DNA of 33,971 nt, taken from NCBI GenBank assembly GCA_021299385.1, contig JAJTGZ010000018.1, positions 1-33,971 on the forward strand, given 5' to 3'. This document shows positions 25,707-27,273 of this stretch, piece by piece. Within the stretch, counting starts at the first letter, position 1; each line of letters opens with the position of its first letter. The stretch comes from Phycisphaeraceae bacterium. GTDB lineage: Bacteria; Planctomycetota; Phycisphaerae; Phycisphaerales; UBA1924. Made by a program: the position numbers and the translations under genes. Under the pieces are notes generated by a model. That model made no database searches. It was not told where the DNA came from and saw only the letters and a program-made list of their open reading frames with translations.

Positions 25707-25886
25707 GCACCTCTATATCGGGTGTTCGCCACCTTCCCTTGCACACCCAGACCCCAACGGGCCAAAGATCACCCGACCCACCCCCCACCAATACACTCCC
25801 CAGCCCAATCTTCCTCACACCCGCCCCCTCCGCGTCGCTCTTTCTTATTCCCTCTCAACTAGGTTTCCCCCCACCCAGGCCCCACC

Positions 25887-26624
25887 ATCACCACCACCCG
25901 TCCACCCTGGCAGCTCCACCTTCCCAACGCCCTCACCGGCGCGCGGGTCATCATGGCCCTGGTCTTCTTTGCGGTCCTGACCCGCTGGCGCTGGGAAGAC
26001 TCGGCGGCCCAGGCCCTCAGCCAGGGAACCTCCACCCACGTGGACCGCTGGCTCCTGCTCGCCGCCGCCCTCTTCATCATCGCGGGCCTGACTGACATAC
26101 TCGACGGCGCGCTCGCCCGCGCCTGGGGCGTTGAAACAACCCTCGGCCGCATCATGGACCCCTTCGCAGACAAACTCCTGGTCATCGGCGCGCTCGTCTT
26201 CCTCGCCAGCGCCGACTGGTGGTTCGAGTTCAAGGACCCCGACATCATCAAACTCTCAGGCCACGGCATGCAGGTCTCGGGCATCTACCCATGGATGGTC
26301 GTCGTCATACTCGCGCGCGAACTGCTCGTAACAAGCATCCGTGCCACGCTCGAATCGCAGGGCATCCGCTTCGGCGCCGATGTCTTTGGCAAGGCCAAAA
26401 TGCTCGCCCAGTCCATCGCCATACCCACCAGCCTCATCGCCCCGGCCATCACCAAAGTCATCCCCGCCGATGTTACAGCCAGTTTCTGGACCTACCCCTG
26501 GGGCCGCATCACCATCGACCTCGTCGCCCGCACTGCCGTCGCGCTGACGATCCTCAGCGCACTGCCATACATCTGGCGCGCCGCCATGCTCGTGCGCACT
26601 GCACGCAAAACCACACAAGGCTAA
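25887..26624 (+). CDS. pgsA: CDP-diacylglycerol--glycerol-3-phosphate 3-phosphatidyltransferase (non-canonical ATC start inferred)
   Basis: Membrane enzyme making phosphatidylglycerophosphate. It has the CDP-alcohol phosphotransferase motif DILDGALARAWG..LGRIMDPFADK (DxxDGxxARxxxxxxxxGxxxDxxxD). Hydrophobic segments include VIMALVFFAVL, WLLLAAALFIIAGL, LLVIGALVFLA, WMVVVILARELLV and ALTILSALPYIW. The first ATG (25953) lies inside the first membrane helix, after the conserved LHLPNALTGARVI. In-frame sequence upstream runs to a TAG at 25860 with no ATG, GTG, TTG or CTG. A start at ATC 25887 gives MTTTRPPWQLHLPNALTGAR and 245 aa. The conservative call is 25953-26624 (223 aa). pgpA follows 4 nt later. 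Confidence 0.88.
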   Translation: MTTTRPPWQLHLPNALTGARVIMALVFFAVLTRWRWEDSAAQALSQGTSTHVDRWLLLAAALFIIAGLTDILDGALARAWGVETTLGRIMDPFADKLLVIGALVFLASADWWFEFKDPDIIKLSGHGMQVSGIYPWMVVVILARELLVTSIRATLESQGIRFGADVFGKAKMLAQSIAIPTSLIAPAITKVIPADVTASFWTYPWGRITIDLVARTAVALTILSALPYIWRAAMLVRTARKTTQG

Positions 26625-26628
26625 GACC

Positions 26629-27144
26629 ATTTCAGCCAAACCCCCACCCTCACCCCGGCTCCCACTCGCCCTGATCACCACCCTGGGCCTCGGGCACCTC
26701 CGCCCCGCCTCGGGCACCTGGGGCTCACTCCCCCCGGCGGTCCTGGCCGGGGTCCTCATCCTCACCAACCAGGCCGGCACCACACTCTGGTACGCACTCC
26801 TGGCCGCCATCACCATCCTCTTCAGCGCCGCGTGCGTGGGCTTCGGGCACCTAGCCGAGCAAACCTTTGGCAAGAAAGACCCCTCCCAAGCCGTTGCCGA
26901 CGAAACCGCCGGGATGGCCCTGACGCTCCTGTTGCTGCCCACCTGGTGGGCGGACGACCAGCGCACGCTGCTGGCCTATACAGCCGGGGCGTTCGTCCTC
27001 TTCCGCTTGGCAGACATCCTCAAACTCCCCCCGGCGAACCAACTCCAGAGTATCGGTGGCGGCTGGGGCATCCTGCTCGACGACCTCGCCGCCGCGCTGC
27101 AAGCCGGGGCCGTGCTCATCGCCGGGGCGTGGGTGCTGAAATAA
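26629..27144 (+). CDS. pgpA: Phosphatidylglycerophosphatase A (non-canonical ATT start inferred)
   Basis: Removes phosphate from the PgsA product to give phosphatidylglycerol. The conserved parts are LALITTLGLGHLRPASGTWGSLPPAVLAG (the family GxGxxxxxPGTxGS element), VADETAGMALTLLLLP, FVLFRLADILKLPPANQLQ (family FRxxDxxKPxP) and GGGWGILLDDLAAAL. The first ATG-type start is a GTG at 26836, which would delete the first third, including the conserved GTWGS. Reading upstream in frame to the pgsA stop, the only initiator-like codon is ATT at 26629 (CTG at 26671 is internal to the first helix). Starting there gives 171 aa, close to E. coli PgpA (172), with AAGG 8-9 nt upstream. The gene is in the pgsA operon. 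Confidence 0.88.
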   Translation: MSAKPPPSPRLPLALITTLGLGHLRPASGTWGSLPPAVLAGVLILTNQAGTTLWYALLAAITILFSAACVGFGHLAEQTFGKKDPSQAVADETAGMALTLLLLPTWWADDQRTLLAYTAGAFVLFRLADILKLPPANQLQSIGGGWGILLDDLAAALQAGAVLIAGAWVLK

Positions 27145-27165: not shown

Positions 27166-27273
27166 GGTTGACGGCCAGGAGACCGATGGCCCGGCAAGCA
27201 CCGCTTATGGCTGCTGCGGTCAAGCCCTGACCAGGTTCGCAGGCCCACCGTTCACCGGGCCTGGCCGTCAACC
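27166..27273 (-). ncRNA. ffs: Signal recognition particle RNA, small bacterial (4.5S) type
   Basis: On the minus strand the RNA starts GGTTGACGGCCAGG and ends CCTGGCCGTCAACC, a perfect 14-bp terminal stem, and is about 108 nt long. The apical domain reads GAACCTGGTCAGG, then GCTTGACCGC, then AGCAGCCATAAGCGG, matching the Ffh-binding GGTCAGG...AGCAGCC of domain IV and its loops. The apical loop is UUGACC (or UGAC, a URRC-type tetraloop) instead of the common GGAA. TATAAT lies 15 nt upstream, so the primary transcript probably starts a few nt before 27273. It is convergent with pgpA. Confidence 0.9.

Follow-up and report, generated by a model that had tools for sequence, protein, structure and literature searches.

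The pcnB gene of Escherichia coli starts with AUU. For infC, ATT is used as start codon in E. coli and ATC in Streptomyces, and the gene is autoregulated by IF3 (PMC5472188). Repression by IF3 has been found by experiment also for Streptomyces sigR, which starts at GTC in 32/34 species (PMC5472188). Start codons whose third position pairs weakly are rejected by IF3 (PMC10158994), and an excess of IF3 inhibits re-initiation that lacks a Shine-Dalgarno (SD) sequence (PMC2268962). Such starts are rarely gained: for 61,358 ancestral AUG starts, one switch to AUU and two to CUG were reconstructed (PMC5622118).

Here, we investigate pgsA and pgpA of an uncultured planctomycete, two adjacent genes of the phosphatidylglycerol pathway that both lack a nearby ATG, GTG or TTG (in the following, standard starts). 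A first-pass annotation had assigned ATH codons to both genes and had suggested shared translational control or a lineage habit. We consider it probable, though well short of certain, that an intact pgpA is translated from a non-standard codon, most likely ATT 26629. In the part of the literature covered, we found no account of unusual pgsA or pgpA start codons.

Materials and Methods

The window, i.e., the whole stretch of DNA analysed, is contig C13 with 33,971 bases. It is part of an assembly of 2.63 Mb in 111 contigs that is 95% complete. Our pgpA locus set combines this genome, 29 of the 48 other matching genomes, and the best 80 of 502 confirmed places. Among the named matches, of which the best 80 of 502 were kept, Phycisphaerales or Planctomycetota assemblies prevail. 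Profile searches find pgpA in 110/110 loci examined, of which 98 are distinct. When counting the spacing between pgsA and pgpA, the start was taken as the first ATG or else as the first standard codon.

The coding-signal scan used separate training sets, i.e., 629 kb of this genome, 600 kb of the same-genus genome G003, and 400 kb of the less GC-rich genome G027. It covers 1,142 genes in total, i.e., 447 of this genome (24% sampled), 394 of G003, whose sample was chosen so as to contain the pgsA-pgpA stretch, and 301 of G027. An additional homology scan compares N-termini nearly exclusively with G003, since G027 contributed 11 genes. To score start contexts, a model was trained on 205 confident ATG starts. 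When separating true starts from internal codons, the context score yields an AUC of 0.77 and is as such a moderate discriminator, while SD pairing and folding reach 0.57 and 0.72, respectively.

Results

The frame of pgpA is open from 26548 to 27141 and ends with a stop at 27142-27144. Upstream of GTG 26836, its first standard start, it holds zero ATG, GTG or TTG, which verifies the coordinates given by the first-pass annotation. Counted from ATT 26629, this GTG is residue 70 of PgpA, such that a start there drops ten residues that are invariant in 18/18 aligned proteins (L21, G22, R25, G29, W31, G32, S33, P35, P36, C69). The conserved segment upstream of the GTG, which we take to be the active site, would be lost as the annotation had stated. 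That is, no ATG, GTG or TTG is compatible with the conserved N-terminus. The same is seen in the Pfam match, which begins at profile position 3 for the ATT start vs. 59 for the GTG start. From ATT, PgpA scores 103.8 bits with PF04608 (cut-off 28) and covers positions 3-139 of 141. With NCBIfam NF008288, the equivalog model of E. coli-type PgpA, it reaches 42.5 bits, i.e., less than the cut-off of 226, and a search of solved structures with PgpA returned chance-level matches only. By sequence, we infer a distant member of the family with a predicted function. The PgpA of E. coli has a length of 172 aa.

The coding signal runs 60 codons above the first standard start of pgpA, which is the maximum among all 447 + 394 + 301 scanned genes; the runner-up, a frameshifted transporter gene, shows 49 codons. 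From codon frequencies alone, the chance of 69 codons without a standard start is between 0.8% (coding usage) and 2.6% (non-coding). At 3 of the 98 distinct pgpA loci, namely this window, L030 and L267, the stretch from codon -25 to codon +3 around the profile start holds no standard start. In L267, an ATG is found 35 codons before the profile start with the frame open from there, and in L030 the N-terminal motif is located in another frame (read by eye). Of all intact pgpA genes at the 98 distinct loci, only the one studied here is devoid of a standard start, and none of the intact ones among the 97 others shares a non-standard start. Taken at the sequence level, these results support that pgpA requires a non-standard start.

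In L030 (G035:C177), the pgpA frame is broken near the N-terminus, and pgsA does not adjoin it, the two being separated by about 5 kb of the contig. In our window, a gene of the bacterial small SRP RNA (RF00169, 46.6 bits vs. 40) is encoded convergently with pgpA at 27170-27266 on the minus strand.

Table 1. Features of the pgsA-pgpA region (window positions) and the initiator-like tRNA gene of the same genome.
Feature	Position	Strand	Basis or remark
pgsA (CDP-alcohol phosphatidyltransferase family), 245 aa from ATC	25887..26624	+	Pfam PF01066
ATC, proposed pgsA start codon	25887..25889	+	coding boundary; best context of its frame
AAGG, Shine-Dalgarno-like (weak), 8 nt ahead of ATT 26629	26617..26620	+	sequence
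TAA, pgsA stop	26622..26624	+	sequence
pgpA (phosphatidylglycerophosphatase A family), 171 aa from ATT	26629..27144	+	Pfam PF04608; invariant residues kept
ATT, most likely pgpA start codon	26629..26631	+	4 nt after pgsA stop; offset -10 = TTG of G003
CTG, rival pgpA start codon	26671..26673	+	offset +4 = ATG of G003
GTG, first standard start codon of pgpA frame, too far inside protein	26836..26838	+	Pfam match begins at profile position 59
tRNA-Met (CAT), initiator-like	G000:C85:11077-11148, locus L346	-	GGG/CCC anticodon arm, mismatched first pair (by eye)

For the upstream gene pgsA, the lack of a nearby standard start, as previously proposed along with ATC 25887, is borne out. After TAG 25860-25862, its frame shows zero ATG, GTG or TTG until ATG 25953. 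A start at the latter would drop the conserved segment HLPNALTGARV, which aligns with relatives, and its context is poor. ATC 25887, on the other hand, coincides exactly with the boundary of the coding signal, has the best context in the frame, which also beats 97% of the 205 confident ATG starts, and is located in a region with almost no folding. The PF01066 score of PgsA is 105.7 bits from ATC vs. 92.4 from ATG 25953 (cut-off 22). TIGR00560, the PgsA equivalog, is its best-scoring equivalog with 98.2 bits, under the cut-off of 109.1. The coding scan reports 22 codons for pgsA, which is within the noise of the method, so that the case rests on homology and context. We conclude that pgsA probably starts at ATC 25887.

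A pgsA match is present at 100/110 loci (93 distinct), of which 90 distinct ones provide a standard start within at most 30 codons from the motif. These 90 are among the 92 distinct loci other than this one. The remaining 3/93 are L057 and G003, where a standard start is found only further away, and this genome with none. For L057, it is an ATG at -32. In G003, the first standard start met when going upstream is a GTG, located 31 codons above an ATA. This GTG lacks an SD sequence, its context is poor, and the codons between it and the ATA carry no coding signal. The ATA itself is set in a mediocre context, which a CTG nine codons further on surpasses. It is possible that pgsA of G003 starts at the distant GTG, and the same-genus genome G002 has an ATG nearby. 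A non-standard pgsA start may be common to two species of the genus, such that a lineage trait is possible at pgsA. Overall, a non-standard start is not conserved among the relatives compared: for intact pgpA, the lack of a standard start is restricted to this genome, and for pgsA it possibly extends to G003.

We also assessed whether non-standard starts are habitual throughout the genome. Of the 447 genes of this genome, which all have a complete 5' frame, 11 show a coding signal that begins at least 12 codons ahead of the first standard start, and for 4 this distance is at least 20 codons, namely pgpA (60), a frameshifted RND-type transporter gene (49), an rsmA-like gene (35, named by eye), and pgsA (22). 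On inspection by eye, we dismissed two of the four, i.e., the transporter gene due to its frameshift and the rsmA-like gene due to a usable GTG. The transporter gene continues in another frame around position 6753 of L086 (G000:C6), which is a real or an assembly frameshift. For G003, 10/394 genes show at least 20 codons and none at least 45, where most of the ten have a plausible ATG or GTG at the real start (by eye). The respective numbers for G027 are 2/301 and none. The homology scan flagged 5/97 genes: pgpA, pgsA, the frameshifted transporter, and two genes with good ATGs that were over-extended by alignment. In the reverse direction, 6/98 genes of G003 were flagged.

After review of the 447 sampled genes, only pgpA and pgsA are left, which gives no support to a genome-wide habit. 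The lineage habit suggested by the first-pass annotation is likewise unsupported when searching for N-termini upstream of first standard starts throughout the sample; at pgsA alone, a lineage trait is possible given G003. The adjacency of pgsA and pgpA points to a local cause; the window having been chosen for this feature, we claim no probability. Local G depletion was considered as such a cause and rejected: compared with 463 genes, the GC skew of pgsA ranks at the 18th percentile and that of pgpA at the 23rd, which is not extreme.

Within the pgpA frame, the non-standard candidates before the conserved stretch are ATT 26629, CTG 26671, ATC 26674, and CTG 26683. The distances of ATT 26629 to the pgsA stop and to AAGG as well as the resulting protein length were reported correctly by the first-pass annotation and, along with an aligned TTG in G003, make it a good candidate; CTG 26671 was overlooked. 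When starting there, pgpA would encode 157 aa from just before the conserved TTLGLGHLRP, and ATT would be incidental. CTG 26671 is found at the offset of an ATG in G003, its context score equals that of ATT (1.81 vs. 1.63, no difference), and it scores equally in Pfam (104.0 bits). Moreover, several codons unable to start outscore ATT in the same stretch, e.g., TCA 26650 with 3.60. The presence of ATT alone proves little, since within 13-18 codons ATT is expected by chance in 6-16% and any ATH in 32-60% of the cases. The coding signal has its statistical boundary at 26656, i.e., between both codons, which counts against ATT, but also against the CTG, being 5 codons ahead of it. The CTG is 46 nt past the pgsA stop and thereby off the usual coupled position. 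The SD duplex is weaker for CTG 26671 (-1.7 vs. -2.8 kcal/mol for AAGG before ATT, compared to a mean of -4.1 for confident starts; the 16S tail carries a normal anti-SD), and folding is stronger (-6.4 vs. -4.4 kcal/mol, i.e., weak around ATT). Every intact locus except L267 (ATG at -35) has a standard start between -25 and +3, and none is forced to +4. In G003, a TTG that overlaps the pgsA stop aligns with ATT, each of them 15 residues before TT(F/L)GLG, and this TTG surpasses the ATG aligned with CTG 26671 in context (2.08 vs. -0.03) and is less folded (-2.7 vs. -8.9 kcal/mol). Residues 2-14 of PgpA counted from ATT read SAKPPPSPRLPLA. Since SD pairing, folding and G003 favor ATT while contexts are equal and ATH codons are common, ATT 26629 is most likely the better choice, though not proven, and we regard a start at CTG 26671 as less likely, though a real rival.

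Three further readings concern the genes as a whole. Both start codons could be assembly or consensus errors or result from strain mixtures, with the living genes starting at ATG, GTG or TTG. One changed base per gene is sufficient for this, the assembly is split into 111 contigs, and no other intact pgpA of the set is without a start. But two independent errors would be needed at adjacent start codons with both frames otherwise intact, and G003, a separate assembly, also shows no good nearby standard start for pgsA, which makes such errors distinctly unlikely. Early decay of pgpA, i.e., a lost start codon, little or no product, and replacement by another phosphatase, would agree with a gene that may be dispensable in the order, given that the PgpA query is unmatched in 12/61 genomes searched (one of these only 55% complete). 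Against decay, the reading frame is unbroken and has kept every invariant residue. Moreover, pgsA also lacks a start, yet with matches in 60/61 genomes it is unlikely to be a dying gene; we deem decay of pgpA very improbable. Finally, the frame of pgpA is open back to 26548 and overlaps the end of pgsA, such that a +1 frameshift or readthrough near the pgsA stop could yield a single PgsA-PgpA polypeptide, named in the first-pass annotation as an outcome that would contradict separate starts. With pgsA and pgpA in different frames, a fusion would have to get past the TAA that ends pgsA by a +1 shift with no evident slippery sequence (by eye), while pgpA has its own standard start in 84/86 adjacent pairs. 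The fusion is unsupported, and we assign it hardly any probability.

Discussion

Given a start at ATT 26629, a coupling to pgsA would be in line with the gene order in relatives. At 86 loci, this one included, pgsA is directly before pgpA, where 46 pairs overlap and 17 show a gap of 0-15 nt; re-initiation coupling is therefore the normal arrangement, and ATT with its distance of 4 nt fits it. Ribosomes that end pgsA, itself presumably started at ATC 25887, would re-initiate at ATT 26629 with the aid of the weak AAGG and would insert formyl-methionine. The expected outcome would be low amounts of PgpA that are coupled to pgsA. By comparison with other systems, the output of PgsA and PgpA would fall when IF3 is abundant, because IF3 disfavors such codons elsewhere. 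Production of PgpA is thus possibly IF3-dependent, and the shared translational control of both genes, as suggested before, is plausible. A stronger version, i.e., that both phosphatidylglycerol genes of the genus use IF3-sensitive starts on purpose such that anionic lipids are synthesized at a rate set by the IF3 level, appears unlikely to us. If true, IF3-sensitive starts of pgsA and pgpA would link translation initiation capacity directly to membrane composition.

IF3 is needed for the proposed control step, and that it was not found here counts against this step. In this assembly, which is 95% complete, neither IF3_C nor IF3_N reaches the cut-off. IF3_C is over the cut-off in 56/61 genomes, and the five without comprise this one and others of 55, 88, 92 and 99% completeness. 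Since these include incomplete genomes, we judge the absence to be most likely a gap rather than a real loss. The gene that adjoins infC in G003 also exists here, in a different neighborhood. A relaxed initiation via IF3 loss was considered as an explanation and discarded: the gap is likelier, and the gene scan gives no support.

A standard initiator tRNA anticodon arm is likewise not found in this assembly. A looser pattern matched in 53/61 genomes, where some matches are not initiator tRNAs and the misses include incomplete genomes. The 44 tRNA places of this genome, a list that is possibly incomplete given that ARAGORN found a tRNA-Ala in L084 outside of them, include three tRNA genes with CAT anticodon, one of which is initiator-like (Table 1). 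It is 82-84% identical to the tRNAs of G012, G046 and G009 at the places of their standard initiator arms. Its contig of 14 kb was binned with this genome, and phage tail and internal virion genes flank the tRNA, which is possibly phage-borne. The missing initiator tRNA is most likely an assembly gap, and a real loss has a low probability. An altered initiator tRNA was weighed as an explanation of the unusual starts as well and was discarded.

For annotation, a restriction to ATG, GTG and TTG would truncate both PgsA and PgpA. Beyond that, two rare starts side by side in one pathway would provide a useful natural test of regulation vs. tolerated noise.

Among the known systems, E. coli pcnB is comparable as a chromosomal gene with an AUU start, but it belongs to a different pathway and is not known to be part of such a pair. 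With infC, the locus shares a conserved protein that begins at an ATH codon. A pattern match finds ATT or ATC before the conserved N-terminus of infC in 10/14 loci of relatives (L063, L065-L071, L075, L076), of which 5 also have an ATG, GTG or TTG upstream in the stretch shown and 5 have none. IF3 of relatives may itself be made from an ATT or ATC start. In contrast to infC, which controls its own product, an IF3 feedback is not implied for the lipid enzymes, and the pgpA case is known from a single genome. Streptomyces sigR resembles our locus in being a coupled pair with a rare start on the first gene that was overlooked by gene finders. There, the evidence is experimental and concerns only the first gene, whereas pgsA-pgpA is known from sequence and both genes are affected. 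Together, pgpA and pgsA probably add a further case to a phenomenon that is known but very uncommon.
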